64,000 nt of DNA from Micromonospora ferruginea. GTDB lineage: Bacteria; Actinomycetota; Actinomycetes; Mycobacteriales; Micromonosporaceae. Position numbers and translations under genes: made by a program. The DNA lies in assembly GCF_013694245.2 (NCBI RefSeq), contig NZ_CP059322.2:2104001-2168000 (forward strand), written 5' to 3'. The notes beneath the pieces were generated by a model, which saw nothing but the letters and a program-made list of their open reading frames with translations, had not been told where the DNA came from and did not search any database. This document shows positions 30,230-56,701 of this stretch, one piece after another; position 1 is the first letter of the stretch; every line of letters starts with the position of its first letter.

Positions 30230-30781
30230 TCAGGCCAGCTCGGCCAGCGCCTCGGCGACCGCCGGGGCGGCGCCGTCCAGCCACCGGCCGATGCCCACCT
30301 CGGCGGTGTCGAACTCGCGTTCGAGCACGCACAGCCCGGGCGTCGGCACGCAGGCGCCCACCTCGGCCAGCAGCGCGCCCAGGTGGGTGTCGACGACGCG
30401 GCGGTGCCCGGACCGGGCCGCGGTCATCAGCGGCACCGCCACCACGCCGGCCAGCGCGCCCCGGGGCAGCACGTCCACGAAGAGCTTCAGCAGGCCGCTG
30501 TACGCCGCCTTGAAGGTGGGGCTGGCCACCAGCAGCAGCCCGGGACGGCGGACCGACTCCAGCACCTCGTCCAGCGCGTCCGGGCGGCTGCCCTGGCCGA
30601 CCAGCTCCGCGGTCAGCTCGGACAGGTCGATCACGCCCGGGGGCCCGACCGGGGTGGGCCCGCCGGCCAGCCGCCGGTGCAGCGCCGCCGCGGCGCCCAG
30701 CGCGACGGTCCGGGTCCGCGAGTGCGGTTTCGGGTTGCCGATCACCACGGTCAGCGGCAGGTGCCGCGCCGGCGCCGCCAT
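30230..30781 (-). CDS. NAD(P)H-dependent FMN reductase (SsuE/MsuE-like)
   Basis: This 183-residue flavodoxin-fold protein has VVIGNPKPHSRTR at the phosphate-binding loop and LLVASPTFKAAYSGLLKLFVD in the middle, the SsuE signature. It supplies reduced FMN to a flavin monooxygenase. It directly overlaps (TGATG) the SsuD-like gene, its likely partner. It is the last gene of the large leftward operon. ATG 30781 is chosen; a GTG at 30784 is possible. Confidence 0.88.
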   Translation of the reverse strand: MAAPARHLPLTVVIGNPKPHSRTRTVALGAAAALHRRLAGGPTPVGPPGVIDLSELTAELVGQGSRPDALDEVLESVRRPGLLLVASPTFKAAYSGLLKLFVDVLPRGALAGVVAVPLMTAARSGHRRVVDTHLGALLAEVGACVPTPGLCVLEREFDTAEVGIGRWLDGAAPAVAEALAELA

Positions 30782-31908
30782 CACCGGGCCGCCATCTCGG
30801 GCGTACGGTCGGTGTCCGGGGCGAGCAGGCCGTCGTGCCGCAGCAGCGGCAGCACCCCCTCGCCGACCCAGTACGCCTCCTCGAGATGCGGCTGCCCGGA
30901 GAGGATCAGGTGGTCGACGCCGGCGGCGTGGTACTCGGCGATCCGTTCGGCGACCTCCTCGTGGCTGCCCACCAGCGCCGCGCCGGCACCCGGCCGGACC
31001 AGCGAGTAGCCGGCCCAGACGTTCGGGTGGACCTCCATCCGGGCGTTGCCGCCGGCGTGCAGCGCCGCGGCCCGCCGCTGCCCCTCCGACTCGGTACGGG
31101 AGAACCGCTTGCGCGCCGCGTCGATGCGCGCCTGGTCGACGCCGGCGAGCAGTCGTTCCGCCTCGGCCCAGGCCTCCCGCGCGGTGTCCCGGCTGATCAC
31201 GTGCAGCCGGCTGCCGGTGCGCAGCGTCCGCCCCGCCTCCGCCGCCCGGTCGCGTGCCTGTGCCAGCAGCTCACCGAGGAGGGCGGGGGTCTCGCCCCAG
31301 GCGAGGTAGACGTCGGCGTGCTGGGCCGCCGTCTGCTGGGCGGCGGGCGACGAGCCGCCGAGGAAGACCGTCGGCGCGGTCTCCGGCGGCCGGGCCAGCA
31401 GCGCGCCGCGTACCCGGTAGTGCTCGCCCTCGTGGTCGACCGGCCGGCCGGACCAGAGCTGGTTGAGGATGGCCAGGAACTCCCCGGCCCGGGCGTAGCG
31501 GGCGTCGTGGTCCAGCCAGTCGCCGTAGCGGTGCTGCTCGTCCGGGTCGCTGCCGGCGACGATGTTGAGCAGCACCCGGCCGCCGGTGACCCGGTCCAGG
31601 GTGGCGGCCATCTGCGCAACCAGCGTGGGTGAGACGAGTCCCGGCCGCAGCGCGATCATGAACTTGAGCCGTTCGGTCTGCGCGGCCAGCGCGGACGCCA
31701 CGATCCACGGGTCCTCGCAGAACAGGCCCGCCGGGGTGAGCACGCTGGCGAAGCCGAGCCGGTCGGCGGCCTGCGCCACCTGGGCCAGATAGCCGACGTC
31801 CGGCCGGCGGCGGGTGATGCGCGCCGGGCGGCTCCCGCCCCGCGACGGCTCGGCCAGGTCCCGGCCGTCGCCGTGCGAGGGCAGGAACCAGTGCAGTTCC
31901 AGTGACAT
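30781..31908 (-). CDS. SsuD-like FMNH2-dependent monooxygenase (LLM)
   Basis: This 375-residue luciferase-like monooxygenase closely follows alkanesulfonate monooxygenase: WFLPSHGDGRDL at the start, RLKFMIALRPGLVSPTLVAQMAATLDRVTGGR, and LNIVAGSDPDEQHRYGDWLDHDARYARAGEFL (broken here by normal sequence). In sulfur metabolism it releases sulfite from sulfonates. Placed in this operon with its reductase, a tailoring oxidation is also possible, and no sulfonate importer is present. ATG at 31908. Confidence 0.88.
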   Translation of the reverse strand: MSLELHWFLPSHGDGRDLAEPSRGGSRPARITRRRPDVGYLAQVAQAADRLGFASVLTPAGLFCEDPWIVASALAAQTERLKFMIALRPGLVSPTLVAQMAATLDRVTGGRVLLNIVAGSDPDEQHRYGDWLDHDARYARAGEFLAILNQLWSGRPVDHEGEHYRVRGALLARPPETAPTVFLGGSSPAAQQTAAQHADVYLAWGETPALLGELLAQARDRAAEAGRTLRTGSRLHVISRDTAREAWAEAERLLAGVDQARIDAARKRFSRTESEGQRRAAALHAGGNARMEVHPNVWAGYSLVRPGAGAALVGSHEEVAERIAEYHAAGVDHLILSGQPHLEEAYWVGEGVLPLLRHDGLLAPDTDRTPEMAAR

Positions 31909-31912
31909 CGGG

Positions 31913-34693
31913 TCAGTCCCCCCTCGGCGCGGTGTCGAAGCGCGCGGGCATCGCGGTGATCGCGTTCATGAAGTTGGTCCGCATCCGGCGGACCGGTCCG
32001 GTCAGCCGCAGTCCGGCCAGGTGTGGGCGGACCGCGGTGAGGAAGGCCGCCATCTCCAGCCGGGCCAGGTGGGCGCCGAGACAGAAGTGCGGGCCGATGC
32101 CGAACGCCAGATGGGGGTTCGGGTCGCGGCCCAGGTCCAGCCGGTCCGGGTCGGCGAACGCCTCCGGGTCCCGGTTGGCCGAGCTGTAGTAGACGACCAC
32201 CTTGTCACCGGCGGCGATCCGGGTGCCGTCGAGCACGGTGTCGCGGGTGGCGGTCCGCCGGAACTGCATGATCGGGGTGACCCAGCGCAACAGTTCCTCC
32301 ACCGCCGGCCCGGTCAGGTCCGGCTCGGCGATCAGGCGGTCCCGCTGCGCCGGGTGCGCCAGCAGCGCCTGCACGCCGCCGGAGATCAGGTGCCGGGTGG
32401 TCTCGTTGCCGGCGATGACCAGCAGCAGCCACAACTGGCAGAGCTGCGCGTCGGTCAGCCCCCGGCCGTCGGACTCGGCGTGCACCAGCAGGCTCATCAG
32501 GTCCTCGGTCGGGTGGGCCCGCCGCTGCGCGGCGAGCTGCCGCACGTAGGCGAAGGCGGCGGCGAACGTGTCCCGGTAGCGCGGCACGCTGCCGCCGCCG
32601 TGCTCCGGGTCGTCGAAGCCGACCAGGTTGTTGCTCCACTCGAACAGCAGCTTGCGGTCGGTGGCCGGCATGCCCAGCAGGTCGGTGAGGACCAGCAGCG
32701 GCAGTTCGGCGGCCAGGTCGGCCACCACGTCGATCGCACCGGCGGTGACCGCGCGGGAGACCACCTCCTCGGCGTGCCGGGTGACCAGCTCGCGCAGGCG
32801 TCCCACCGCGCGCGGGGTGAACGCGCCGGCCACCAGGCGGCGTACCCAGGTGTGCTCGGGAGCGTCCATGTTGATCAGAAGCTGCCGGTTGCGTTCCAGG
32901 TCGGCCGGGGTGCGCGGGTCGGCGAGGAACGCGCCGCCGGCGGCCGAGGAGAACAGCGCCGGGTCACGCGAGACCGCCGACACGGCGGCGTACCGGGTGA
33001 CCGCCCAGAAGCCCCGCCCCCGCGACGTCGTCTCGCCGTCGCGGTCGGTGCGGGTCAGCGCGACCTCGTCGACCCAGGCGACGGGGGCCTCCCGGCGGCG
33101 CCGGGCGAACTCGGCGTGCGGCACGCCGCTGAGGTACGTCCGCGGGTCGGCGAGCACGTCCGGCGGCGCCGGCGCGTGCCGGTGGCGGTCCCGCAGCGCC
33201 GCGCGGGGCACCTTGCCGGTGGGCTCGCGGGGGATCCGGTCGACCAGCTCGTAGGAGCGCGGCACCTTGAACCCGGCCAGCCCGGCCCGGCAGTGCGCGT
33301 CGAGGACCGCCTCGACGCCGTCGGCCGGCCACGCCGGGTCGAGTTGCACCAGTGCCCGGACCTGCTCGCCGAACTCGGCGTCCGGCACCCCGACGACCAC
33401 CCCGTCGGCCACCGCCGGGTGGGTCAGCAGCACCGCCTCCACCTCCGCCGGGTACACGTTGACGCCGCCGGAGACGATCAGTTCCGCCGAGCGTCCGGTC
33501 AGGTAGAGGTAGCCGTCGCCGTCGAGGCGGCCGAGGTCACCGAGGGTGAAGGTGTGCGGGGCGACGTGCGCGTTCTCGGTCTGCTCCGGGGCGTTGTGGT
33601 AGTGGAAGCCGCGACCCGGGGGACGGCGGACGGCGACCCGGCCCTCCCGCCCGGTCGGCACCGGGCGGCCCTCGTCGTCCACCACCAGGACCTCGGTCGG
33701 CGGTGCCGGCCGGCCCACCGTGCCGGGTCGGGCCAACCAGGTGTGCGAGTCGGCGAGGGTGACGATGCCGGCCTCGGTGGCGGCGTAGTACTCCACGAAC
33801 ACCGGGCCCCACCAGTCGATCATCGCGCGTTTGGTCTCCGGCGGGCACGGGCCGCCGCCGTGCCAGATGCGGGCGAGGCTGGCGCCGGAGAACCCGGCGC
33901 GGGTGGCGTCGTCGACCCGCAGCAGGCGGATGAACTGCGTCGGCACCAGATGGCTGATGGTGATCTTCTCGTCGTCGATCACGCGCAGCACCTCGGCCGG
34001 GTCGAACCGCCGGCGCATCACCAGGGCGCAGCCGCGCAGCAGCGGGAACTGGGCGAAGAACAACTGCGCCGAGTGGTACCACGGGCCCACCAGCAGGGCC
34101 CGGCCGTCGGTCGGGATGCCGAGCCCGGCGCCGAGCGCGGCCGTGGTGGCGGCCACCCGTTCGATCGGCGCGCCGACGCTGAGCAGCGGGTTGACCACGC
34201 CCTTGGGACGACCGCTGGTGCCCGAGGTGTAGAGCAGGACACCGCCGGAGACGGCCGGCGGCGGCGGGCCGGCGGGCAGGTCGGCGAACGGGGTGAAGCC
34301 CTCGCCGGAGTCCACCGTGACCAGCACCTCGGGGGCGTCCGGCACGCGGTCCACGGCGGCGCGCACGCCGGGCGCGTACGCGGCCTCGGTGAGCACCGCG
34401 CGGGCGCCGGAGTCGGCCAGGATGTGGGCGATCTCCGGCGCGGTCAGGTGCCAGTTCACCGGCACCGCCACCAGCCCGGAGTGCACGCAGGCCAGCAGCG
34501 CCTCGAAGGTCTCGCGCCGGTTGCCGAGCACGAACGCCACCCGGTCGCCGACGGCGAGGCCGGCGCCGTGCAGCGCCGCGATCCACCTGTCGACCGCCCG
34601 GTCCAGCTCCGCCCACGTGCGGGTGCCGTCCTCGTCGACGAGCGCGGTGTCGCCGCCGGCGTCGCGCACCATGTCCTGCAGCAGCTCGGCCAC
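31913..34693 (-). CDS. Acyl-CoA ligase-cytochrome P450 fusion
   Basis: One uninterrupted 926-residue reading frame. Residues 1-505 are a FadD-type acyl-CoA synthetase: P-loop YTSGTSGRPKG (155-165), YYAATEAG, GDLGRLDGDGYLYLTGR, and catalytic Lys494 in EPTGKVPRAAL. Residues about 510-926 are a complete P450: AGNETT (761-766) in helix I, the ExxR region near 800, and haem loop FGIGPHFCLG (864-873, Cys871). The P450 half resembles the CYP124/125/142 group, which oxidises chain-end methyls of lipids and sterols, and the ligase half resembles steroid/fatty-acyl FadD proteins. Oxidation of a chain end and its CoA activation may thus be channelled. GTG start with AGGAGG upstream. Confidence 0.88.
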   Translation of the reverse strand: MAELLQDMVRDAGGDTALVDEDGTRTWAELDRAVDRWIAALHGAGLAVGDRVAFVLGNRRETFEALLACVHSGLVAVPVNWHLTAPEIAHILADSGARAVLTEAAYAPGVRAAVDRVPDAPEVLVTVDSGEGFTPFADLPAGPPPPAVSGGVLLYTSGTSGRPKGVVNPLLSVGAPIERVAATTAALGAGLGIPTDGRALLVGPWYHSAQLFFAQFPLLRGCALVMRRRFDPAEVLRVIDDEKITISHLVPTQFIRLLRVDDATRAGFSGASLARIWHGGGPCPPETKRAMIDWWGPVFVEYYAATEAGIVTLADSHTWLARPGTVGRPAPPTEVLVVDDEGRPVPTGREGRVAVRRPPGRGFHYHNAPEQTENAHVAPHTFTLGDLGRLDGDGYLYLTGRSAELIVSGGVNVYPAEVEAVLLTHPAVADGVVVGVPDAEFGEQVRALVQLDPAWPADGVEAVLDAHCRAGLAGFKVPRSYELVDRIPREPTGKVPRAALRDRHRHAPAPPDVLADPRTYLSGVPHAEFARRRREAPVAWVDEVALTRTDRDGETTSRGRGFWAVTRYAAVSAVSRDPALFSSAAGGAFLADPRTPADLERNRQLLINMDAPEHTWVRRLVAGAFTPRAVGRLRELVTRHAEEVVSRAVTAGAIDVVADLAAELPLLVLTDLLGMPATDRKLLFEWSNNLVGFDDPEHGGGSVPRYRDTFAAAFAYVRQLAAQRRAHPTEDLMSLLVHAESDGRGLTDAQLCQLWLLLVIAGNETTRHLISGGVQALLAHPAQRDRLIAEPDLTGPAVEELLRWVTPIMQFRRTATRDTVLDGTRIAAGDKVVVYYSSANRDPEAFADPDRLDLGRDPNPHLAFGIGPHFCLGAHLARLEMAAFLTAVRPHLAGLRLTGPVRRMRTNFMNAITAMPARFDTAPRGD

Positions 34694-34718
34694 TCGGAGC
34701 CTCCTGTCTGTGCGTGGT

Positions 34719-35456
34719 TCAGGCCGTCAGGTCGGGGCTGACGGCCAGGACGTGCTCGGCCACCGGCCGGAAGTTGAGCCGGGCGATCCCGGCGGTGCCG
34801 ATGTCCGCGCGCGCCGCCCGGGCCGCCTCGGCGGGGATCAGCACCAGCTCGCCGGCCGCCTGGGCGAGCAGTTGCACCTGGCAGCAGCGGTCCATGGCGA
34901 GGAACCACCAGGCCGCCTCGGCGACCGAGCCGCCGACCGTGAGCAGGCCGTGGTTGCGCAGCACGACCGCCTTGCCGGCGCCCAGCGTGGCGGCGATCCG
35001 GTCGCCCTCCGCCCCGTCGAGCACCACCCCGCCGTACTCGTCGTGGACCTCGTGGTCCTCGAAGAACGCGCAGGCGTCCTGGGTGATCGGCGCGAGCGGC
35101 CGGCCCAGCGCGGAGAACGCCCGGCCGTGCACCGAGTGGGTGTGCGCGGCGGCCACCACGTCCGGCCGGGCCTTGTGGATCGCGGAGTGGATGGCGTAGC
35201 CGGCCGGGTTGACCCGGCCCGTTCCCTCGACCACCTCGCCGGCGTGGTCCACCCGCAGCAGGTCGTCGTCGCGGACGTGGCGGAAGTGCCGGCCGAACGG
35301 GTTGATCCAGAAGGTGTCCGGGTCGATCGGGTCCCGGGCGGTCACGTGCCCGCCGGCGCCCTCGTCGAAGCCGGCCAGCGCGAAGGCGCGCGCGGTGAGC
35401 ACCAGGTGCCGCCGCCGGTACGCCCGCTCCTGCTCGGGGGTGCGTCGCTCAGCCAC
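34719..35456 (-). CDS. Class II aldolase/adducin family protein
   Basis: This 245-residue protein has GGHVTARDP near the N-terminus, zinc ligands in AAAHTHSVHGRAFSA, and VVLRNHGLLTVGGSVAEA. The family includes fuculose-phosphate aldolases and decarboxylases, but this form with WINPFGRHF resembles the poorly known catabolic members. Its GTG start at 35456 overlaps the upstream isomerase-like gene by 8 bases. A retro-aldol or decarboxylation role in the pathway is inference. Confidence 0.85.
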   Translation of the reverse strand: MAERRTPEQERAYRRRHLVLTARAFALAGFDEGAGGHVTARDPIDPDTFWINPFGRHFRHVRDDDLLRVDHAGEVVEGTGRVNPAGYAIHSAIHKARPDVVAAAHTHSVHGRAFSALGRPLAPITQDACAFFEDHEVHDEYGGVVLDGAEGDRIAATLGAGKAVVLRNHGLLTVGGSVAEAAWWFLAMDRCCQVQLLAQAAGELVLIPAEAARAARADIGTAGIARLNFRPVAEHVLAVSPDLTA

Positions 35457-36147
35457 AGCCGCCTCCGGTGTCGGTGTCGTACCCGCCGGCGCCGGCCGGC
35501 ACGGGCTCCGCCGGGCGCACCGGCGCGCCGGCACGGTCGGCGTACGCGGCGAGGAAGTCGTCGACCCGGTCGAAACCCCAGAACCGGTGCGGGCCGATCC
35601 GCAGGTAGGGGATGCCGAAGATGTCGTCGTCGTAGGCGCGCATCAGGCAGTCCACCCCGGCGGCGCGGATCGCGTCGTCGTCCACGGCGCCGAGCACCAC
35701 CTGCGGGTCGACGCCGGCCCGCTCGGCCACCCCGGCCAGGACCTCCGGCGTGCAGACGTCCTCGCCGCGGTGCCAGCGCGCCGCGATCACCTCCCGGTAG
35801 AACGCCTCCCCCGCACCCCGTTCCCGGGCCGCGAGGAAACCCAGGTGCGGCAGCTCCCACCACGGGTCGATGTCGATCGGCCAGCGCATCGGCACCTCCA
35901 GCCGCCGGGCCAGCCGCTTGGCGTCCTGCAACAGGTAGAGGTGCTTCGGCTTGCTCATCTGCACGTAGTGGAACGCGCCACCGGCCGCGGTCAGCGCCGA
36001 ACCGGTACGCGGATCCGGGTCCCAGTAGGGGATGAACTCCAGCGCCTCCTGCGGGCGGTGCAGCGCCCGGGTCAGCCGTTCCACCGCCAGCCAGCTGTAC
36101 GGGCTGCGGAACGAGAAGTACAACCGGGGCGGTCGGGGCGCCATCAT
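35449..36147 (-). CDS. DsbA/GST-kappa-type protein, 2-hydroxychromene-2-carboxylate isomerase-like
   Basis: This 232-residue protein starts with LYFSFRSPYSWLAVERL, where the Ser-Pro-Tyr of HCCA isomerases replaces the DsbA Cys pair. The later block DDIFGIPYLRIGPHRFWGFDRVDDFL is typical of this group, which isomerises double bonds with glutathione or another thiol. In a polyene cluster it may set cis/trans geometry (inference). The tail TDTGGGCG holds a Cys of unknown role. The start overlaps the thioesterase-like gene (ATGA). Confidence 0.85.
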   Translation of the reverse strand: MMAPRPPRLYFSFRSPYSWLAVERLTRALHRPQEALEFIPYWDPDPRTGSALTAAGGAFHYVQMSKPKHLYLLQDAKRLARRLEVPMRWPIDIDPWWELPHLGFLAARERGAGEAFYREVIAARWHRGEDVCTPEVLAGVAERAGVDPQVVLGAVDDDAIRAAGVDCLMRAYDDDIFGIPYLRIGPHRFWGFDRVDDFLAAYADRAGAPVRPAEPVPAGAGGYDTDTGGGCG

Positions 36148-37064
36148 CGCCCTCCGCCGGTGAGGGCGGCCACGGTCTGCCGGTCGAGGGTGGCCAGGCT
36201 GCCGGCGTCCGGGCCCCGGCTGGCCGCGTACCCGTGCAGGATGGTGGCGGTGGCCACCTGCACCAGCCGGCCGTCGCGCACCACGTGGCAGGTCATCCGG
36301 GCGTCGTAGGTGACGTCCTTGAGCACGTCGGTGACCGTGAAGGTGATCCACATCGGCTCCTCGACGCGCGCGTCGCCGCGCACCTCGACGCGGGCCCGGG
36401 AGACCACCGGGATCCAGCCCCGCTCGCGCAGCATCCGCCCGACCGACAGGCCCCGGTCGGCGAGGTAGCGGTCCACCACCTCCTCCAGCAGCCGGACGTA
36501 GCCGGCGTGCTGCATGCGCTCGGAGTACTGGCAGTAGAAGTAGGGCACCCGCCAGGCCCAGACGAAGCCGGCGCCGCCGGCCCGCAGGGTGGCGGCCGGG
36601 TCGGCCCCGGCGGCCGGGCCGGGCTCGCCGGCGCCCGGCTCCTCCAGCAGCCCGGCCAGGTCCGCCGGCAGCGGCGCGGCGGCCGGCGCGTCCGACGCGC
36701 GCACCAGCGCGACCCGGACCCGGGCCCGGCAGGCGGTGACCGGCTCGGCCGGGGCCGGGCCACCCGGGCGGGTGATCCGCACCGCGAACCGGCCGCCCGC
36801 GCCCGGCGTCGCGGTCACGCTCACCTCGTCGTCGACCTCCAGCACGGCCGGCAGCAGCAGCGAGCAGTCCCGCACCGACAGACCCACGCCGTGCTCCAGG
36901 TAGAGCCGGCCCGGGCCGTACCCGCGCTCCCGGAACCACTGCAGGACGCCCTGCTCGACCAGGTACGCGAAGTGCTTGAACCCGATCCAGGTGCGGATGT
37001 TGGCGCCCTCGAACCCGGGCCGGGCGGACAGGGTCACGGGCTCGTGCTGGACCGCCGTGGTCAC
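36144..37064 (-). CDS. Hotdog-fold thioesterase-like protein (double hotdog)
   Basis: This protein of about 306 residues has two hotdog halves: the first with IRTWIGFKHFAYLVEQGVLQWF and LYLEHGVGLSVRDCSLLLP, the second with VPYFYCQYSERMQHAGYVRLLEEVVDRYL, where the D/H-x-x-Y context matches acyl-ACP or 4-hydroxybenzoyl-CoA thioesterases. A Pro/Ala-rich linker (about 115-165) joins the halves. Likely it hydrolyses or binds an acyl thioester in the pathway. The GTG start overlaps the hydrolase stop (GTGA). Confidence 0.7.
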   Translation of the reverse strand: MTTAVQHEPVTLSARPGFEGANIRTWIGFKHFAYLVEQGVLQWFRERGYGPGRLYLEHGVGLSVRDCSLLLPAVLEVDDEVSVTATPGAGGRFAVRITRPGGPAPAEPVTACRARVRVALVRASDAPAAAPLPADLAGLLEEPGAGEPGPAAGADPAATLRAGGAGFVWAWRVPYFYCQYSERMQHAGYVRLLEEVVDRYLADRGLSVGRMLRERGWIPVVSRARVEVRGDARVEEPMWITFTVTDVLKDVTYDARMTCHVVRDGRLVQVATATILHGYAASRGPDAGSLATLDRQTVAALTGGGR

Positions 37065-37870
37065 GGCGTACCTCCTCGGATCGCGGGATCGGGGCAGACC
37101 TGCTCGACGAAGACCGTGATGTGCCGGGCCACCTCGGCCGCGCGGTCGAGGTGGCAGAAGTGGTGGAAGTCCGGCTCGACGACGATGTCGGCGTCGGGCA
37201 ACTGGGCGCGCAGGGCGCCCGCGCACGGCCCGTCCAGGCTGGGGTCCCGCCCACCGGTCAGCACCTTCGTCGGCACGGTCACCGCGTGCAGCGGCAGCCC
37301 GGCCGTGGCGGTGAAGTGGTCGAACAGCGCGGTGAACCCGACCGGGCCGATCCGGTCGACCATGATGTCGCGCATCGACGCCAGCGTGGCGGCGTCCAGT
37401 TCGGCCAGCCGGGAGCCGAGCCGGTTGCGCAGCCCCTCGTCGATGATCTGGACGAAGTTGGCCTGCGCCCGCTCGTGCACCGCCCAGGTGATCGGCAGGT
37501 CGGGCGGGCAGTAGAAGGGCGCGATCAGCATCGCGCCGCGCGGCGCCACCGCCGGCTCGGTGGCCAGCATCTCCAGCACCGCGTTCGCGCCGAGCGAGTG
37601 GCCGACCACGATGTCGGGCGGCGTGGTCATGGCGTCGACGGTCGCGGCGAGCCACCCGCCGGGGGTGCCCCGCCGCCGCCAGTGGTGGTCGGTGCCGGCC
37701 TTCCACGGCAGTTCGGCGGCGAACAGCCGCCAGGTGGCCGGCAGCCGCGCCACCAGGTGCCGCCAGCTCTGCCAGGTGTCGGACATGCCGTGCACCAGCA
37801 GCACGGTCGGCGCGCCGGAGTCCGGACCGGCGACCTGGTGCACCGGCGCGGCGGGCGCGGCGCGGGTCAT
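37061..37870 (-). CDS. Alpha/beta hydrolase
   Basis: This 269-residue protein has the oxyanion-side VLLVHGMSDTWQSWRHLV, the nucleophile elbow VVGHSLGANAVLEM, a late Asp in LTGGRDPSLDG and the catalytic His in FHHFCHLDRAAEVARHI. It may serve as a type II thioesterase, an esterase or a C-C bond hydrolase for the pathway. The ATG overlaps the stop of the KS-like gene (ATGA), so it is firmly in the operon. Confidence 0.85.
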   Translation of the reverse strand: MTRAAPAAPVHQVAGPDSGAPTVLLVHGMSDTWQSWRHLVARLPATWRLFAAELPWKAGTDHHWRRRGTPGGWLAATVDAMTTPPDIVVGHSLGANAVLEMLATEPAVAPRGAMLIAPFYCPPDLPITWAVHERAQANFVQIIDEGLRNRLGSRLAELDAATLASMRDIMVDRIGPVGFTALFDHFTATAGLPLHAVTVPTKVLTGGRDPSLDGPCAGALRAQLPDADIVVEPDFHHFCHLDRAAEVARHITVFVEQVCPDPAIRGGTP

Positions 37871-38904
37871 CGGGGCACCGCCCGCACGGTCAGCTCGCGT
37901 ACGCCGTCGACCGGGTCGCCGCAGCGCACCGCGACGGCCGGCGTGCCGCCGGTCAGCCGGACGGCGAGTGCGGTGTGCACGACCCCGGCGGCGCCGTAGT
38001 GGTCACCGCCCAGCCGGGCCTCGTCGACGATCGGACCGTCGCCGGACGCGCCGTCGCGGACCGCCCCGAGCAGCGCCAACGGCCGGCCGGCGGGGTCGCG
38101 CGGCGCAGGTGGCCGCTCCGCCGCGTCGGTCGGGCCGCGCGGCGCGGACCGCCGTTCCGGCGTCTCGGCCGGGCCCAGCAGCAGGCAGGCGGCGCCGGCC
38201 CGCAGCGGCCGTCCGGGCGTGGCCCCGCGCCGGGCCGCGTGCAGGGCGCGGGCCTGCGGGTCGTCCGGTTCGGTGCCGACCACCACCACCCGGTCGGCGC
38301 GGCCGGTGCGCAGCAGCACGCCGGCCAGCCAGATCGCGTCCAGTCCGGCGGTGGCGCCGGAGCAGACGGTGAGGTTGGGGCCGCCGAAGCGGAACCAGAT
38401 CGCGATCGCCCCGGCGATGACGTTGCTGGAGGCGTTCGGGGCCTCCAGCGGGCCGACCTCGCGGGGCCCGCCGTCGCGCAGCCGCCCGGCGATGTCGCCC
38501 ACCGTGGCGACGTTGCCCAGGTTGGAGCTGACCACCACGGCGGTACGCGGGTCCGCCGGGCCGGTGCGGCGGGGCGCCTTCGGCGGCAGGCCCAGCGCCC
38601 GGTGCACCGCGCACAGCGCGAGCCGGGTGGCCGGCTCCTTGGCCAGCAGGCCCTTGCGGCCGAGCAGCTCGGCGGCCCGCTCCGGTGGCCAGCCCGGCCC
38701 GTCGGCGGCGGCGTCGTCCGGCGCGGTGACCCCGCCAGGAGCGGGGCGCGCGCCCCGCGTGCCGAGATCCGGTGCGGGCAGGCCGGTGCCGACCAGCAGG
38801 GTCGGCACGTCGAGCCCCGGCACGTTCAGCGCGGCGCTCAGCACCGCGGCCACCGGCCGGAAACCGGTCGTCGCCGGGGACGGCACGGCGTGGACGGTCG
38901 TCAC
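37867..38904 (-). CDS. Degenerate ketosynthase-like protein (second CLF-like subunit)
   Basis: This 345-residue thiolase-fold protein has ELLGRKGLLAKEPATRLALC near the N-terminus, a motif that also occurs in the chain-length factor of this cluster, and TVCSGATAGLDAIW around Cys181, the place of the KS nucleophile. The HGTGT His is absent; a GDHYGAAG stretch replaces the GHTxGAAG motif. It is therefore unlikely to condense alone. It is encoded next to a full KS (38901-40013), so it may form a heterodimer with it. GTG start overlapping by four bases. Confidence 0.7.
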   Translation of the reverse strand: MTTVHAVPSPATTGFRPVAAVLSAALNVPGLDVPTLLVGTGLPAPDLGTRGARPAPGGVTAPDDAAADGPGWPPERAAELLGRKGLLAKEPATRLALCAVHRALGLPPKAPRRTGPADPRTAVVVSSNLGNVATVGDIAGRLRDGGPREVGPLEAPNASSNVIAGAIAIWFRFGGPNLTVCSGATAGLDAIWLAGVLLRTGRADRVVVVGTEPDDPQARALHAARRGATPGRPLRAGAACLLLGPAETPERRSAPRGPTDAAERPPAPRDPAGRPLALLGAVRDGASGDGPIVDEARLGGDHYGAAGVVHTALAVRLTGGTPAVAVRCGDPVDGVRELTVRAVPR

Positions 38905-40013
38905 GACGCCTCCAGGAGGGTGACCGCGTTGAGGCCGCCGAAGCCGAACGCGTCGACCTGGGCGACACGCGGTCGCGCCACCACCGCCCGGTCCCGCACG
39001 AGTCGCAGCCCCGCCGCCTCGGGTGTGGGCCGGCGCAGCCCGATCACCGGGGGAACCCGGCCGGTGCGCAGCGCCTCGATCGCGACGGCGACGCTGAGCA
39101 GCGCCGACCCGCCGGAGGTGTGGCCCACCGCGCCCTTGAGCGCGGTCACCAGCGGTCCGGGCGCGCAGCCGGCGAAGACCTCGGCGAGCACCCCGGCCTC
39201 GGTCTCGTCGTTGAGCGCGGTGCCGGTGCCGTGCGCCAGCACCAGGTCGACCTGCTCGGGCCGGCGGTCGGCCCGGCGGTGGGCGTCGCATACCGCCCGG
39301 AGGATGCCGTCGCGGTCGGGCGCCGTCTCATGCCCGGCGTCGCAGGACAGCCCGGTGCCCAGCAGCCGGGCCAGGCCCGTGCCCGGCCGGTCCGCCTCGA
39401 CGACCAGCACCACCGCGCCGTCGCCGAGCAGCACCCCGGCGCGGTCGGCGTCGAACGGCCGCACCCGATCGGTCGGGCTGGCCGCCACCCGCCCGATCAT
39501 GGCCAGCATCGACGCGGTGCTGGCGTCGGTGCCGCCGACCAGCACCGCGTCCGCCTCGCCGGTCTCCACCAGGTCCTGGGCGAGCGCGAGGGCGTGCCCG
39601 CCGGCGCTGCACGCGTTGGCCAGCGTGACCACCCGGCCGACGCCCGGCGCCGCGTCGGTGACGGCCGGGCCGAAGTGCAGGCGCTCGGCGGGAAAGTCCA
39701 CCGTGCCGCCCAGCGCGGCGCGTTCCACCTCGGCCGACTCGCGCAGCCCGGTGCCGACCAGGCTGACCACCCGGCGGCGGCGAGGATCGACACCGGCGGC
39801 GGCCAGCGCCTCGGTGACGCAGTCGGCGAGCCAGCGGCCGGGCCCGAACGGCCGGTCGTCGGCGATCGGGTAGCCGTGCTCCACCCCGACGCGGCGCGGG
39901 TCCACCCGTCGCAGCGGCGCGACGCCGCAGTCGCCGCGCAGCAGCGCGTCCCAGGTGGCCGGCCCGTCGCCGAAGCAGGTGCGGACCGCGCTAGCGGTGA
40001 TCGTCGCCGCCAC
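38901..40013 (-). CDS. Beta-ketoacyl synthase (second KS)
   Basis: This 370-residue KS has a complete active site: Cys135 in LANACSAGGHAL, His261 in HGTGT, Lys293 in TALKGAVGHTS and His298 in the same block, ending DAFGFGGLNAVTLLEA. The N-terminus is shorter than FabF. It carries out or assists decarboxylative Claisen condensation on ACP. Its GTG start lies 23 bases inside the chain-length-factor gene. The role beside the main KS/CLF pair may be priming or a separate elongation phase, as with the extra KSs in aryl polyene clusters. Confidence 0.85.
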   Translation of the reverse strand: MAATITASAVRTCFGDGPATWDALLRGDCGVAPLRRVDPRRVGVEHGYPIADDRPFGPGRWLADCVTEALAAAGVDPRRRRVVSLVGTGLRESAEVERAALGGTVDFPAERLHFGPAVTDAAPGVGRVVTLANACSAGGHALALAQDLVETGEADAVLVGGTDASTASMLAMIGRVAASPTDRVRPFDADRAGVLLGDGAVVLVVEADRPGTGLARLLGTGLSCDAGHETAPDRDGILRAVCDAHRRADRRPEQVDLVLAHGTGTALNDETEAGVLAEVFAGCAPGPLVTALKGAVGHTSGGSALLSVAVAIEALRTGRVPPVIGLRRPTPEAAGLRLVRDRAVVARPRVAQVDAFGFGGLNAVTLLEAS

Positions 40014-41043
40014 CGGCCCACCCCCTCACCACGGCCGCGGCCACCCCGCCGTCGCGGGAGCGGCCGGTGACCAGCGCCGGACGGCCGGCGGACGCCGGCT
40101 CCTCGGCGTACCGGGCCAACAGCGCGCCGAACGCCAGCGCGCCGGCCGCGGCCTGGCAGTCGCCCAGTGCCGGGCGCACCGGCAGCCGTTCCGCCGTGGC
40201 GGGCACGGCGTCCCGCAGGCCGTCGCCGTCGTCGCCGGCCAGCGCCCAGACGTCGGCCGCCCGGACGCCGGCCGTGGCCAGTGCCCGGCGGGCGCAGCCG
40301 GCCAGCCCGGCGTCGGCGTCGTCGGGCGCGAAACCGGTGGCCACCGAGAGCACCTCGGCGCGGGCGCCGGTCGCCTCGGCGCCGCGCCGACGCAGCAGGT
40401 AGACGGCCGACGCCTCGCCGGCCGGTCCGGCGTCGGTCAGCCGGGCCGCCCAGGCGGTGTTCGGCGTGTACTCCTCCACGCCGCCGACCAGCAGGGCGTC
40501 GGCGTAGCCGCGCCGGATGGCGTTGAGCGCGTAGCGCAGCGCGTACAGGAAGGCCAGCGGGCCGCCGGCCACGGTGGCGTTGACGCCGCGCAGGCCGTGG
40601 CGGATGGCCGCCTGACCGGCGGCGCAGTTCATCACCGTGTTGGGGAACAGCACCGGGTTGACCAGGTACGGCTTCTCCTGCACCAGCGTCTCGCGGGAGA
40701 AGTCCATGGTCGACTTCAGGCTGCCGGTGGTGGTGCCCAGCACCACCCCGATGCGGTGCCGGTTGTCGTCGTCGGGGGTCAGTTCCCCGTCGGCGAGCGC
40801 CCGCCCGCAGGCCACCATCGCCAACGCGGTGGCCCGGTCCAGGAAGCTGGTGCCCTTGCGCCCGAGCAGGCCCCGTACGTCGAAGTCGGCGATCGCCGGC
40901 GCCTCGACCTCCGGCAGCGGCTCGGCGAACCGGTCCCGCACGTCGGCGCGCACCGCCGCGCCGGCGCGGATCGCGGTGAGCACGTCGGCGACGGAGTCCC
41001 CGGCGGCGGAGACGACACCGCAGCCGGTCACCACCCCGCTCAC
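39991..41043 (-). CDS. Chain-length factor (KS-beta)
   Basis: This 350-residue KS-like protein has the active Cys replaced: the block VNATVAGGPLAFLYALRYA has Gly at the nucleophile position (around 161). It keeps the overall fold, with FDVRGLLGRKGTSFLDRAT and VVLGTTTGSLKSTMDF, features of CLFs from highly reducing type II systems and of aryl polyene ApeC-like proteins. It should pair with the KS at 41040-42245 and set chain length. The GTG start overlaps the KS stop (GTGA). Confidence 0.85.
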   Translation of the reverse strand: MSGVVTGCGVVSAAGDSVADVLTAIRAGAAVRADVRDRFAEPLPEVEAPAIADFDVRGLLGRKGTSFLDRATALAMVACGRALADGELTPDDDNRHRIGVVLGTTTGSLKSTMDFSRETLVQEKPYLVNPVLFPNTVMNCAAGQAAIRHGLRGVNATVAGGPLAFLYALRYALNAIRRGYADALLVGGVEEYTPNTAWAARLTDAGPAGEASAVYLLRRRGAEATGARAEVLSVATGFAPDDADAGLAGCARRALATAGVRAADVWALAGDDGDGLRDAVPATAERLPVRPALGDCQAAAGALAFGALLARYAEEPASAGRPALVTGRSRDGGVAAAVVRGWAGGGDDHR

Positions 41044-42245
41044 CGGATCGCCCCGAAGATCGTGATGGCGTTGTTGCCGCCGAAGGCGAACCCGTTGTTC
41101 TGCGCCACCCGGACGGTGGCCGGCCGGGCCACGTTGGGCACCGGGTCGATCCACGGCAGCTCCGGGTCCGGGTTCGCCCAGTTGATCGTCGGGGGCAGGA
41201 ACCCGTGCCGGATGGCGAGGGTGGTGGCGATCGCGCCGAAGCCGCTGGCCGCGCCCATGGTGTGCCCGAGCATCGACTTGATCGAGCTGACCGGCGGCAC
41301 CCGGTCGCCGAAGACCGCCCGGATCGCCCGGGCCTCGCACAGGTCGTTCGCCGGGGTGCCGGTGCCGTGGGTGCTGACGTAGTCGACGTCCACCGGCTTG
41401 ATCCCGGCGTTGTCCAGGGCCAGCCGCATGCAGGCGGCGATGCTGTCCTCGTTCGGCGCGACCATGTGGTGGGCGTCGCAGTTCAGGCCGTGGCCGAGCA
41501 CCTCGGCGTAGATCCGCGCGCCCCGGGCGACGGCGTGGTCCAGCGTCTCCAGCACCAGCGCCGCGCCACCCTCGCCGGTGAGGATGCCGGAGCGGTCCCG
41601 GTCGAACGGGCGGCACTGCCGCTCGGTCAGCGCGCCCAGGCGGAAGAAGCCGGCGTGCGCCCACCGGCACACCGAGTCCGCCCCGCCGGCCACCATCACG
41701 TCCGCCTCGCCGGTGTGCAGCAGGTCGTAGGCGTAGCCGATGGCGTAGTTGCTGGCCGAGCAGGCGGTGGTGAGCGTGACCGACTCACCGGCCAGGCCCA
41801 GCTCGGCGCTGACCGCGTAGGCCAGCCGCTCGGCGGGCGCCTGGCGCAGCGAGTCCACCGACATGCTCGGGTAGCCGCCGGCGACGAGGTCCGCGACGAG
41901 TTGCTCCACCACCGTCGACTCGCCGCTGGTGGTGCCGATGACCGCGCCCGCGCGTCCCGGGTCGGCCAGCGGCAGCGGCAGCCCCGCGTCGGTCGCGGCC
42001 AGCCGGGCGGCGGCCGCGGCGAGCAGCGCCGACCGGCCCCACTGCTCGACCCGGACCCGTCGCAGCACCTCCGCCGGCCGGAACGCGGGCACCTCGCCGG
42101 CGTACCGGTGCGGGAAGCCGGACGCGTCGAAGCTGGTGATGGGCGCGGCGGCGGAGCGCCCCCGACGCAGCCCGTCGGTGAACTCGTCGACGCCGATGCC
42201 GATGCCCGACACCGGGCCGAGCCCGGTGACGACTACCCGGTGCAC
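41040..42245 (-). CDS. Beta-ketoacyl-ACP synthase, KS-alpha (FabF-like)
   Basis: This 401-residue protein is a full KS: Cys162 in TTACSASNYAIG, His293 in STHGTGTPAND, Lys323 and His328 in SSIKSMLGHTMGAASG, and FAFGGNNAITIF at the end. It forms the catalytic half of the type II PKS with the chain-length factor encoded next. The GTG start lies 3 bases after the ACP stop. With one KR and two DH-like genes in the same operon, a repeatedly reduced and dehydrated (polyene-type) chain is expected. Confidence 0.92.
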   Translation of the reverse strand: MHRVVVTGLGPVSGIGIGVDEFTDGLRRGRSAAAPITSFDASGFPHRYAGEVPAFRPAEVLRRVRVEQWGRSALLAAAAARLAATDAGLPLPLADPGRAGAVIGTTSGESTVVEQLVADLVAGGYPSMSVDSLRQAPAERLAYAVSAELGLAGESVTLTTACSASNYAIGYAYDLLHTGEADVMVAGGADSVCRWAHAGFFRLGALTERQCRPFDRDRSGILTGEGGAALVLETLDHAVARGARIYAEVLGHGLNCDAHHMVAPNEDSIAACMRLALDNAGIKPVDVDYVSTHGTGTPANDLCEARAIRAVFGDRVPPVSSIKSMLGHTMGAASGFGAIATTLAIRHGFLPPTINWANPDPELPWIDPVPNVARPATVRVAQNNGFAFGGNNAITIFGAIR

Positions 42246-42248: not shown

Positions 42249-42503
42249 TCAGTCCTGCCAGCCGGCGTACCGCGCCACCACCTCGTGCACGGCCTTGAGG
42301 CTGCGCATCTCGTTCAGCTCGGCCTGCGGGATCTCCACCTTGTACCTCTTCTCGATCCGGGCCAGGATCTCGATCGCCCGCAGCGAGTCCGCCTCGTACT
42401 CCTCGACGAAGTCGGCCGTGTCGGCGACCTCCTCGGGCTCCATCTCGAGCACCTCGGCGACGATCTCCCGCAGTTGCTCCAGGTGCTGGTCGCGTTCACT
42501 CAT
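42249..42503 (-). CDS. Acyl carrier protein 1
   Basis: This 84-residue acidic helical protein carries the phosphopantetheine site at Ser40 in EEYEADSLRAIEIL. The helix after it, RIEKRYKVEIPQAEL, is typical of FAS/PKS carrier proteins. It lies between the KS and dehydratase genes and should carry the growing polyketide. ATG start with AGAGGAA-type sequence upstream. No phosphopantetheinyl transferase is in the window. Confidence 0.93.
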   Translation of the reverse strand: MSERDQHLEQLREIVAEVLEMEPEEVADTADFVEEYEADSLRAIEILARIEKRYKVEIPQAELNEMRSLKAVHEVVARYAGWQD

Positions 42504-42518: not shown

Positions 42519-42992
42519 TCAGTCTCGCGGCTCGGCGACGGCGTCGACCGGTCGGACGACGGCCATCATGGAGTCGAACTCGGCCACCCGCCGCTCCCCG
42601 ACCCAACTGGATCCGGAGGCGAACGCGGCGCCGTCGACGACCTGGTCCAGCCGGACCCGGTGGTGGACCACGTCACCCGGGTGCACCGGGTGCAGCAGCA
42701 CCACGTCGCGGGCCGCGGTGAACATCGGCAGCCCCGCCGTGCCCGACCGGCGGGACAGCAGCCAGAGCACCGCCGCCCCCTGGCCGAACGACTCGATCAG
42801 CAGCGACGCCGGGTAGGCGTACCGGTCGGCGGGCTGGTCCTCGGCGATGCCCCGGTAGCAGGGCTCGCAGCCGCTCACCGCCTTGACGCCGGTGAGGCTC
42901 TCGCCGGGCTCGACGTCCTCGACCCGGTCGAGCAGCAGCATCGGGTAGCGGTGCGGCAGCAGGGCGCGCAGCGCGGCGTGGTCCAGTCTCAT
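42519..42992 (-). CDS. FabZ-like dehydratase subunit lacking the catalytic His
   Basis: This 157-residue hotdog protein has the FabZ opening LLPHRYPMLLLDRVEDVEPG and keeps the Glu (Glu67 in SLLIESFGQ). Where FabZ has the catalytic GHFP His, this protein reads RGIAEDQPADRY. It is probably the inactive, structural half of a heterodimer with the neighbouring dehydratase, as described for ApeP-ApeI type pairs. The ATG overlaps the neighbour stop (ATGA), which favours 1:1 synthesis. Confidence 0.82.
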   Translation of the reverse strand: MRLDHAALRALLPHRYPMLLLDRVEDVEPGESLTGVKAVSGCEPCYRGIAEDQPADRYAYPASLLIESFGQGAAVLWLLSRRSGTAGLPMFTAARDVVLLHPVHPGDVVHHRVRLDQVVDGAAFASGSSWVGERRVAEFDSMMAVVRPVDAVAEPRD

Positions 42993-43462
42993 CGGCCGTC
43001 GTCCCCGTCGGTCGGCCAGCGGAACACGGCGCGCACGGTCGCGGTCCGCACCCCGTCGCCGCGTACGCACCGGGCGGTGACCTCGAAGGACTGGTCCTGC
43101 GCGACCGGGCCGACGGACGCCTCCACGGTCAGCGTGTCGCCGGCCAGCAGCGGGGCGAGGAACCGGGCCGAGTGCAGCCGGTGCAGCTCCGGCGGGCGGC
43201 CGGCGCAGTGGCCGACCGCCGCGCTGACCGCCTGCCGCAGGGTCTCCAGGGTGAACACCCCCGGATAGACGGTCAGCTCGGGGAAGTGCCCGGTCAGGTA
43301 GAGGTCGTCCGGGTCGACGGTCGTCTCGGCGCGCAGGGTGATCCCGCCGCGCGGGCCGGCGGCGACCTGGACCGACGCGACGGCCGGCAGCGGCGCGGCC
43401 GCCTCGGCGTACGTCTGGGCGGGGGTGCGGTCCGGGGCGAAGGCGGGTACGACGGCGGTCAC
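42989..43462 (-). CDS. FabZ/FabA-like dehydratase, catalytic subunit
   Basis: This 157-residue hotdog protein has the catalytic pair His59 in LYLTGHFPELTVYPGVF and Glu73 in TLETLRQAV. It removes water from beta-hydroxyacyl-ACP to give enoyl-ACP. The partner encoded next lacks the His, so the working enzyme is likely a heterodimer. The GTG start overlaps the FabG stop (GTGA). An enoyl reductase is absent from the window, consistent with a conjugated polyene product. Confidence 0.85.
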   Translation of the reverse strand: MTAVVPAFAPDRTPAQTYAEAAAPLPAVASVQVAAGPRGGITLRAETTVDPDDLYLTGHFPELTVYPGVFTLETLRQAVSAAVGHCAGRPPELHRLHSARFLAPLLAGDTLTVEASVGPVAQDQSFEVTARCVRGDGVRTATVRAVFRWPTDGDDGR

Positions 43463-44211
43463 AGCACGATCCCCCCGTCCACCCGCACGACCTGGCCGGT
43501 GACGTACGCGGCCCGGTCCGACAGCAGGAACTCGACCAGCTCGGCGACGTCCTCCGGGGTGCCGAAGCGGCGCAGCGGGATCTGCGTCAACGCCTGCGCG
43601 CGCTGCTTCTCCGTCAACGCCGCAGTCATGTCGGTCTCCACGAAGCCCGGCGCGACCACATTGACCCGGATGCCGTACCCGGCGACCTCCTTGGCCAGCG
43701 AGCGGCTGAGCCCGATGATGCCGGCCTTGCTGGCCGCGTAGTTGGTCTGCCCGGCGTTGCCGGTGACCCCGGCGACCGAGGAGAGGTTGACCACGGCCCC
43801 GCGGCGGCGCTTGAGGAACCGGAACGCGACCGCGCGGCAGGTGTTCCAGGTGCCGGTCAGGTTGGTGTCGACGACGTCGTGCCAGTCCTCCGGGCCCATC
43901 AGCACCATCGGCCGGTCCCGGGTGATGCCGGCGTTGTTGACCAGCGCGGTCAGCGGGCCGAGGCGTTTCTCGGCGGTGGCGACGAAGTCGTCGACCGCCG
44001 CCCGGTCGGTGACGTCGCAGGGGGCGAACCAGCTCGGCACCCCGTACGCCTCGACCTCCGCGCGGGTCTTCTCGGCGGCCTCGCCGGCGGTGCTGAAGCA
44101 CCCCGCGACCGCGTAGCCCTCGGCCGCCAGCCGCAGCGCGACCGCCCGCCCGATGCCCCGTGACGCGCCGGTCACCAGCGCGCAGCGCGGCGTCTCACCC
44201 GCCGTGTCCAT
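43459..44211 (-). CDS. 3-ketoacyl-ACP reductase (FabG-like)
   Basis: This 250-residue SDR has ALVTGASRGIGRAVAL, NNAGITRDRPMVLM, catalytic Ser in NLSSVAGVTGNAGQ and Tyr-Lys in TNYAASKAGIIG, and the C-terminus YVTGQVVRVDGGI. It reduces beta-ketoacyl-ACP with NADPH. The ATG 44211 has GGAGG four bases upstream; ATG 44226, overlapping the previous stop, is an alternative that adds five residues. It is the only ketoreductase in the window. Confidence 0.9.
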   Translation of the reverse strand: MDTAGETPRCALVTGASRGIGRAVALRLAAEGYAVAGCFSTAGEAAEKTRAEVEAYGVPSWFAPCDVTDRAAVDDFVATAEKRLGPLTALVNNAGITRDRPMVLMGPEDWHDVVDTNLTGTWNTCRAVAFRFLKRRRGAVVNLSSVAGVTGNAGQTNYAASKAGIIGLSRSLAKEVAGYGIRVNVVAPGFVETDMTAALTEKQRAQALTQIPLRRFGTPEDVAELVEFLLSDRAAYVTGQVVRVDGGIVL

Positions 44212-44222: not shown

Positions 44223-45470
44223 TCATCCGATCGCCCGTTCCGCCCGCAGCCGCGCCCGGGTGGCCGCGTCCACCTTCAGCTCGTCGAGGATCTGTTCGGT
44301 GTCGGCGCCCGGTTCGGGGGCGCCGGCGCGCACCGCCGTCGGCGTGCGGGAGAACTTCACCGCCGGCCCGGTCAGCGGCGCGGTGCTGCCGTTGGCCAGC
44401 ACGGTCTCCTGCACCATCGCCCGGGCCCGCACCTGCGGGTCGGCGGCCGCGTCGGCGAAGGTGCGGACCCGCTCGGCGGTGATCCCGGCGTCGTCGAGCA
44501 CGGCGACCACGTCGGCGCAGGTCCGTTCGGCGCACCAGCCGGCGAGAACGGCGTTGACCTCGGCGCGGTTGTCCCGGCGCTCCTCGTTGGTGGCGTATCC
44601 GGGCGCCCGGGCCAGCTCGGGCCGGCCGACCACCTCGGCGAGGCGCCGCCAGGAGCGGTCCAGCGCGACGGCGACGTAGACGTGCCCGTCGGCGCAGCGG
44701 AAACAGCCGGCCGGCACCACGAAGTCGGCCTGGTCGCCCCAGCGGCGCAGCGGCACCCCGGTCGCGCCGAGGGTCAGGTAGCCGTTGCTGGAGAACAGCA
44801 ACGCGTCCAGCATGCTCACGTCGACGTGCTGGCCCTCGCCGGTGCGGTCGCGGTGGCGCAGCGCGGCGAGCGCGCCGATCACCGCGTGCAGGCCGGCGAT
44901 GTCGTCGGCGAGGAAGGTGGGCGCCTTGAGCGGGGCGCCGTCGGGTTCGCCGTTGAGCGACATCCACCCGGCGGCGGCCTGGGTGGTCGGGTCGTAGCCG
45001 GGCCGGGCGGCGTCCGGGCCGTACTGGCCGTAGCCGGAGATGGAGACCAGCACCACGTCGGGGCGAACCTCGCGGCAGGCCCGGTAGCCGACGCCCCAGG
45101 CGTCCAGGGTGCCGGGCTTGTAGTTCTCCACCACGACGTCGGCGGTGGCGACGAGCCGCAGGAACACCTCGGCCGCGCCGGGGCGCCGCAGGTCCAGCCC
45201 GATGCTGCGCTTGTTGCGGTGCACGCTCTGCCGGAACCAGGACAGCCCGGTGCCCGGGATGTGCGGCGGCATGAGCCCTTCCCGGTTGCCGGGCATCTCC
45301 ACCCGCAGCACGTCGGCGCCGAGGTCGGCCAGCACGCAACTGGCGACCGGGCCGGACCAGACCTTCGTCACGTCGAGCACGCGGACGCCGTGCAGCGGAC
45401 CGGGCAGGTCGGCGCGCGCGTCGGCGTAGAACGCGGCGGCGTCGGTGGGAGCGCTCGTGTCGGTGTCCAT
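44223..45470 (-). CDS. CaiB/BaiF-type (class III) CoA-transferase
   Basis: This 415-residue protein has LHGVRVLDVTKVWSGPVASCVLADLGADVLRVE at the N-terminus (normal family spacing), RNKRSIGLDLRRPGAAEVF, VVVENYKPGTLDAWGVGY, and the catalytic Asp region in GYDPTTQAAAGWM. Such enzymes move CoA between carboxylic acids. Here it may load a chain or aryl acid as CoA thioester, or recycle CoA after the thiolase step. ATG 45470 has GGGAG eight bases before; a GTG at 45479 overlaps the thiolase stop. Confidence 0.9.
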   Translation of the reverse strand: MDTDTSAPTDAAAFYADARADLPGPLHGVRVLDVTKVWSGPVASCVLADLGADVLRVEMPGNREGLMPPHIPGTGLSWFRQSVHRNKRSIGLDLRRPGAAEVFLRLVATADVVVENYKPGTLDAWGVGYRACREVRPDVVLVSISGYGQYGPDAARPGYDPTTQAAAGWMSLNGEPDGAPLKAPTFLADDIAGLHAVIGALAALRHRDRTGEGQHVDVSMLDALLFSSNGYLTLGATGVPLRRWGDQADFVVPAGCFRCADGHVYVAVALDRSWRRLAEVVGRPELARAPGYATNEERRDNRAEVNAVLAGWCAERTCADVVAVLDDAGITAERVRTFADAAADPQVRARAMVQETVLANGSTAPLTGPAVKFSRTPTAVRAGAPEPGADTEQILDELKVDAATRARLRAERAIG

Positions 45471-47952: not shown

Positions 47953-48003
47953 TTTCCCGTATCTCGGAAGCACTTGTTTCTCGTATCTTTGGTTGCGCAT
48001 ACT
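47953..48003. promoter_or_regulatory. Divergent promoter with direct repeats TTTC(C/T)CGTATCT
   Basis: TTTCCCGTATCT (47953-47964) and TTTCTCGTATCT (47977-47988) are 11 of 12 identical and exactly 24 bases apart, between two divergent P450 genes. For the rightward gene, TTGTTT (47974-47979), 18 bases, CATACT (47998-48003) can act as promoter, placing the second repeat between -35 and -10. Related CGTATCT elements occur before three other divergent pairs in the cluster. Confidence 0.6.
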
Positions 48004-48010
48004 GGCGGGC

Positions 48011-50427: not shown

Positions 50428-50451
50428 GCCGGCATCGCGAGGAGTCGCCGC

Positions 50452-52695: not shown

Positions 52696-52696
52696 C

Positions 52697-52739
52697 CGGC
52701 GGGCGTGCCCGGGTCACCGCGGCCCGGGCACGCCCGCCG
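52697..52739. terminator. 17-bp perfect hairpin
   Basis: CGGCGGGCGTGCCCGGG (52697-52713) and its exact complement (52723-52739) flank a nine-base loop, directly after the molybdenum hydroxylase stop and before the convergent ferredoxin end. A bidirectional terminator. Confidence 0.8.
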
Positions 52740-52743
52740 ACGC

Positions 52744-52938
52744 TCAGTCGTCGACGACGGAGAGGGCCTGCTTCGGGCAGCGGCGGGCGGCCTCGCGCAC
52801 CCGCCGGCCCAGCGATCCCTCCAGCGGCTGCTCGGTGACGTGCAGCAGGTCGTCCTCACCGACGTCGAACACCTCCGGCGCCTGCCCCACGCACACGGCG
52901 TTGCTCTCGCAGCGGGAGTAGTCCACGACCAGTCGCAT
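52744..52938 (-). CDS. 3Fe-4S ferredoxin
   Basis: This 64-residue protein has three cluster Cys: Cys10 and Cys16 in SRCESNAVCVG, and Cys54 in ARRCPKQAL. The middle Cys of 4Fe-4S proteins is missing, as in P450-type 3Fe-4S ferredoxins. It likely passes electrons to one or more P450s of the cluster. ATG start at 52938, three bases after the O-methyltransferase stop, so it shares that operon. Confidence 0.93.
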   Translation of the reverse strand: MRLVVDYSRCESNAVCVGQAPEVFDVGEDDLLHVTEQPLEGSLGRRVREAARRCPKQALSVVDD

Positions 52939-52941
52939 CGC

Positions 52942-56700: not shown

Positions 56701-56701
56701 G

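Follow-up and report, generated by a model that had tools for sequence, protein, structure and literature searches.

Fusions of cytochromes P450 to their redox partners are well documented, whereas fusion to the enzyme of the next metabolic step is much rarer; P450s joined to other enzymes are likewise known. CYP125, CYP124 and CYP268 represent the steroid C26-monooxygenase and branched-lipid omega-hydroxylases, and sterol side-chain catabolism employs CYP125 together with a FadD ligase and the FadA5 thiolase. Adenylating ligases also occur in type II polyketide systems, in which AmcH of the cispentacin (amc) system loads the starter onto the acyl carrier protein (ACP) (PMC10698177) and AvaA1/CmaA1 does so in ava/cma-type clusters (PMC10777205).

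In this study, a gene in which a FadD-type acyl-CoA ligase and a CYP125-like P450 are joined in one reading frame was analysed in the window, a 64,000-nucleotide stretch of Micromonospora ferruginea DNA (contig NZ_CP059322.2). A ligase-P450 fusion is not categorically new, since P450 fusions to other enzymes are already known. Exact-term searches of open-access full text, in which absence is weak evidence, returned neither a published acyl-CoA ligase-P450 fusion nor a published description of the gene cluster, and the cluster appears uncharacterised within the literature searched. We give roughly an even chance to the reading that one bifunctional protein is made, in which the P450 would oxidise the end of a polyketide chain and the tethered ligase would form the acyl-CoA, and that this protein was born of a coupled gene pair.

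The fused gene and its reading frame

The gene is read on the minus strand from a GTG at 34693 to a stop at 31915-31913, and its 926 codons encode 926 amino acids (Table 1). AGGAGG lies a few bases 5' of the GTG, and the G+C contents at the three codon positions (0.76/0.52/0.97) are a strong coding signature; the frame of 975 aa on the opposite strand (31814-34741) is probably the mirror frame typical of genes this rich in G+C. The sequence-only reading had proposed a natural fusion in a single open frame of 926 residues and named no strand. That frame was recovered, the quoted motifs (155-165, Lys494, AGNETT 761-766 and Cys871) were all found in place, the linker of about ten residues was located at 504-513, and the fusion is borne out by the Pfam domains of the chain (AMP-binding, AMP-binding_C and p450), by the similarity of both halves to known enzymes and by structure matches.

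It is highly improbable that two proteins are made, by an internal start or by processing, or that the open frame is an assembly error. In-frame GTG codons do occur near the junction of the window copy, but none has an obvious ribosome site. The fused members share no start codon within the linker, so that the internal start ahead of the P450 that the earlier reading had allowed for was rejected. The only conserved start codon near the junction is the GTG of the GVP motif, which is also found inside most unfused P450s, and in one Amycolatopsis fused copy start codons near the junction are absent before this motif. A sequencing or frameshift artefact was likewise rejected: the same continuous frame in 13 other distinct genomes excludes the feared frameshift or stop near 33178, and all fused loci, but none of the split ones, have a distance from the catalytic Lys to GVP that is divisible by 3. 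A self-sufficient P450 of the CYP102 or CYP116 type was also considered and rejected, as Pfam found no reductase or ferredoxin domain in the chain and the ferredoxin gene is separate.

Table 1. Features of the fused gene and of its surroundings in the window
Feature	Position	Strand	Basis or remark
Fused acyl-CoA ligase-cytochrome P450, GTG start, 926 aa	31913-34693	-	ORF listing, Pfam, orthologues
Ligase half, residues 1-503, FadD/ANL type, P-loop 155-165, catalytic Lys494	33185-34693	-	Pfam, NCBIfam, motifs, structure match
Linker, about residues 504-513, sequence variable, pLDDT <50 at 506-511	33155-33184	-	Orthologue comparison, AlphaFold
P450 half, residues 514-926, CYP125-like, AGNETT 761-766, ExxR 800-803, haem Cys871	31916-33154	-	Motifs, similarity, structure match
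FMN reductase, partner of monooxygenase	30230-30784	-	
SsuD-like flavin monooxygenase, lineage-specific	30781-31908	-	4 bases downstream of fusion
Class II aldolase-like protein, start possibly further downstream	34719-35534	-	
DsbA-like / 2-hydroxychromene-carboxylate-isomerase-like protein	35449-36147	-	
Hot-dog (4HBT_2) protein	36144-37055	-	
Alpha/beta hydrolase	37061-37870	-	
AmcG-like ketosynthase-fold partner	37867-38904	-	Below NCBIfam cut-off
AmcF-like ketosynthase	38901-40013	-	Below NCBIfam cut-off
Chain-length-factor-like (CLF-like) protein	39991-41043	-	
Ketosynthase (KS)	41040-42245	-	Nearest solved relative 6kxd
Acyl carrier protein	42249-42503	-	
FabZ-like dehydratase	42519-43070	-	
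Second FabA/FabZ-like dehydratase	42989-43459	-	Fused to other dehydratase in six relatives
FabG-type ketoreductase (KR), approximate start	43459-44190	-	
Family III CoA-transferase, approximate start	44223-45390	-	
FadA5-like thiolase	45476-46615	-	PRK07850, 583 bits vs cut-off 515
Second P450	47993-49222	+	
Molybdopterin hydroxylase subunit	50452-52695	+	
Small ferredoxin, likely P450 electron donor	52744-52938	-	Adjoins thiolase gene in most relatives
Second ligase	55069-56700	+	
AMP-binding enzyme with ACP	57873-59978	-	

The ligase and P450 halves

The ligase half carries AMP-binding (residues 9-358, 224.8 bits) and AMP-binding_C (residues 417-494, 57.7 bits) domains, both above the Pfam gathering score. 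Lys494 is invariant in nine fused orthologues, and so is the P-loop (YTSGTSGRPKG) except at positions 160 and 162. With the domains and motifs of the ANL superfamily, this half is predicted to be an acyl-CoA ligase. It is nearest to FadD-type and feruloyl-CoA synthetases, and its predicted model matched adenylate-forming enzymes with TM up to 0.89, best McbA (Foldseek). FadD4/PRK12406, FadD13 and feruloyl-CoA synthetase share its AMP-binding and C-terminal domains, P-loop and catalytic Lys, whereas the ligase half described here is fused to a P450 and scores below the cut-offs of all of its best 25 NCBIfam models. We regard as rather unlikely the reverse order of reactions, in which the ligase would first activate an acid, as an acyl-CoA or by loading of the ACP, and the P450 would then oxidise the thioester or carrier-bound chain. 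The N-terminal place of the ligase and the starter-loading ligases of the cispentacin (PMC10698177) and ava/cma-type (PMC10777205) clusters are in keeping with this order, but the best matches here are FadD-type CoA ligases, and the cispentacin ligase model is absent from the best 25 NCBIfam families matching this half.

The P450 half contains a p450 domain (81.9 bits, Pfam) with the haem Cys871, the ExxR pair E800/R803 and the acid-alcohol pair E764-T765, and these residues, together with the AGNETT motif, are invariant in the nine fused orthologues. Its nearest relative is CYP125MRCA, a reconstructed ancestor (430 bits, 49% identity), followed by CYP268, CYP125 and CYP124. The alignment with CYP125MRCA spans the whole half (its residues 1-409), the AGNETT I-helix is the same, and the predicted model matched with TM 0.94 (Foldseek). 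Identity to the native Mycobacterium tuberculosis CYP125 is 35% against a family criterion of at least 40%, which leaves oxidation of a terminal methyl less than certain. The substrates of CYP125/124-type P450s are free lipids, which also speaks against prior activation by the ligase.

Unfused ligase-P450 pairs outside the cluster

Distant ligase and P450 genes (32-40% identity) are neighbours outside the cluster as well. In one such pair, on a plasmid of Mycobacterium avium, the two genes share ATGA; after them come genes for an alcohol dehydrogenase, an aldehyde dehydrogenase, a ferredoxin, an FAD-dependent oxidoreductase and a MaoC dehydratase, and a CaiB-type CoA-transferase and thiolases are encoded close by. 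The Novosphingobium pair lies among beta-oxidation genes; in Qipengyuania, the start and stop overlap by one base and the surrounding genes are unrelated. By analogy, the catabolic-looking operons of M. avium and Novosphingobium support the preferred order, chain-end oxidation followed by CoA activation, which had been offered earlier as chemical logic, over the reverse one. They also suggest that the cluster may have recruited a catabolic module.

Linker and predicted structure

AlphaFold modelled the full chain (44-row alignment, mean pLDDT 87.4, pTM 0.60) as two confidently folded domains with an uncertain joint; residues 506-511 are the sole internal stretch with pLDDT below 50, and the placement of the domains relative to each other is modelled with low confidence. 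Considering this model, the intact motifs and the match of each half to its expected fold in Foldseek, the protein is predicted to be two complete enzymes with a short flexible tether between them. Between the catalytic Lys and GVP lie 87 nt in the fused copies of Amycolatopsis and in the main Micromonospora ones, 132 nt in one Micromonospora-group copy and 204 nt in Saccharothrix, where the linker is rich in Ala/Ser/Pro. The widely differing linker lengths and the unsure joint of the model speak for a tether rather than a fixed channel and give no hint of a purpose-built one; any channelling we only infer.

Within the Micromonospora clade, third-position changes are in excess in both halves, whereas the linker changes are mostly non-synonymous and exceed synonymous ones in most comparisons. 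An unconserved linker and domains that fold independently in the model would agree with a reading that we hold to be fairly unlikely, namely that the fusion is real and its halves act on different intermediates. Joining would then fix only equal amounts or location, and the ancestral ATGA/GTGA overlap, which makes read-through fusion easy, would have eased it.

Distribution and origin of the fusion

After removal of duplicates between collections, the fused frame was found in 14 distinct genomes including the window, with identities of 58-94%: 85-94% for the Micromonospora orthologues and about 58-60% for those of Amycolatopsis and Saccharothrix. One more Micromonospora-group genome, counted among the 14, carries the fused frame with 59% identity. 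Among 151 congeneric genomes searched, 28 gave a strong match, and the genes were fused in 9 of these 28. The family is sparse outside Micromonospora, as reduced class-wide and order-wide samples yielded matches in only 3 of 247 and 6 of 150 genomes. One Micromonospora-group genome (G156) has two separate split copies on different contigs (L100 and L111).

In the split relatives, the ligase gene stands directly ahead of the P450 gene. Four bases (ATGA or GTGA) are shared between the stop of the first and the start of the second in 19 of 23 distinct split loci, and also in G443. At least two changes between the split and fused states are needed on the tree of both halves, four on the ligase tree alone and two on the P450 tree alone. 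A single origin was rejected, since one fused clade failed the AU test (p-AU 1.7e-5, quick tree used). The tree does not give the direction of change; repeated fusion, with at least two independent events, is judged more likely than repeated splitting because the split state shares the overlap, which also occurs in a distant pair.

As a control, 16 pairs of adjoining genes, taken from the cassette and the genes next to it, were compared across 17 loci. Fusion was seen in two of these pairs only, in ligase-P450 at 9 loci and in the dehydratase pair at 6. The KS-CLF, AmcF-AmcG, AmcG-hydrolase, hydrolase-hotdog, hotdog-DsbA and KR-dehydratase pairs have a four-base overlap in 13-16 of 16-17 loci and were never fused. 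The ligase-P450 fusion is therefore not just a by-product of gene overlap, although the kinship of the loci limits exact statistics. This result, with fusion of the ligase-P450 pair at least twice, counts against halves that serve different intermediates, as do the homologous neighbour pairs beyond the cluster, two of which lie in operons of catabolic appearance. KS-CLF and AmcF-AmcG are known kinds of heterodimer and remain separate, so that cooperation cannot simply be read from fusion; nor is fusion essential, as the cluster keeps separate genes in most lineages. Returning to coupled action of the two halves, the repeated joining suggests that the two steps cooperate in making a natural product. 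Since the pair exists both fused and as overlapping genes in one and the same conserved cluster, a ready comparison is at hand for what fusion gains.

The two FabA/FabZ-like dehydratases form one frame in six relatives (L012-L017, between KR and ACP) and are separate in the window.

The gene cassette around the fusion

The ligase-P450 gene closes the conserved core of a cluster for type II polyketide synthesis. This context was absent from the sequence-only reading, as was the finding that most relatives encode the two halves in overlapping genes. The cassette runs [ferredoxin]-thiolase-CoA-transferase-KR-dehydratase-dehydratase-ACP-KS-CLF, then AmcF-like-AmcG-like-hydrolase-hotdog-DsbA-like-aldolase-ligase-P450. 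This order is conserved in all but one relative examined, with the ligase-P450 pair at the cassette end, and the cassette constitutes an actinomycete gene set across several families. Discrete KS, CLF, ACP, KR and dehydratase genes are present, and the window KS matched 6kxd, which we take to be the ishigamide ketosynthase, with 404 bits. From this closest relationship of the KS, the cluster is assigned to the highly reducing type II polyketide synthases (PKS). The thiolase exceeds the cut-off of the steroid 3-ketoacyl-CoA thiolase model (PRK07850). The ferredoxin gene adjoins the thiolase gene in G012, G007, G090, G059 and G443, and its product is likely the electron donor of the P450, a role that another ferredoxin could serve.

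Several further observations concern this region. At one locus from a Streptosporangiaceae metagenome (L009), most of the cassette is retained, ligase-P450 pair included, and ABC-transporter-like genes occupy the place of ACP, KS, CLF and the second KS pair (L009:3900-7600). Chain-length factors are usually without the cysteine of the partner ketosynthase; the CLF-like protein reads MNCAAG where its partner has TACSAS and may keep it. The SsuD-like monooxygenase and FMN reductase lie directly 3' of the fusion in its Micromonospora clade, and relatives of the monooxygenase (61-65%) are found elsewhere in the G090, G467 and G443 clusters. The cluster seems to extend to the right edge of the window (47993-64000), where, besides the genes listed in Table 1, three Methyltransf_2-type O-methyltransferases, another methyltransferase, an acyl-CoA-dehydrogenase-like protein and a second luciferase-like monooxygenase are encoded; several genes of this part have relatives beside the cassette in other genomes.

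Proposed function

In the preferred reading, the CYP125-like half, with electrons from the small ferredoxin of the cluster, would oxidise the hydrocarbon terminus of a polyketide-derived acyl chain, probably up to the carboxylic acid, and the tethered FadD-type half would use ATP to convert the acid into an acyl-CoA, which could be processed by the CoA-transferase and the FadA5-like thiolase. The last two enzymes of the cassette thereby predict an oxidised, CoA-activated intermediate. Indels in the overlap of the translationally coupled pair would have joined the two frames at least twice, and fusion would keep both enzymes together at 1:1 on a flexible tether. Of this reading, the single conserved frame with its intact motifs, the descent from an overlapping gene pair, the repeated joining and the conserved cassette are directly established, whereas the substrate, the sequence of reactions, the role of the ferredoxin and the gain from tethering are inferred.

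Comparison with known systems

The window resembles three described systems in part. A cispentacin-type cluster was rejected: AmcF- and AmcG-like genes and AmcE- and AmcB-like dehydratase and ACP genes are present (PMC10698177), but their NCBIfam scores fall below the cut-offs (AmcF 179<325, AmcG 36<80, AmcB 23<80 and AmcE 69<140 bits), and no AmcH-type ligase was identified in the window cluster. With the ishigamide-type PKS, the locus shares a related KS, adjoined by ACP, KR, two dehydratase and CLF-like genes, whereas the window adds a second ketosynthase pair, the thiolase, the CoA-transferase, the aldolase, the DsbA-like protein and the ligase-P450. All three activity kinds of sterol side-chain catabolism are present, but here the module is embedded in a polyketide cassette, and no steroid-ring genes were seen in the annotated stretches. 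Unlike CYP125, CYP124 and CYP268, this P450 is C-terminal on a ligase, belongs to a polyketide cluster and not to a sterol regulon, and falls under 40% identity to native CYP125. Tentatively, and with somewhat less than even confidence, we propose that the protein represents an undescribed, repeatedly evolved class of P450 fusion that tethers oxidation and CoA activation as the last step of a hybrid pathway to a new kind of natural product, in which a highly reducing type II PKS would be combined with an oxidation module like that of the sterol side chain.
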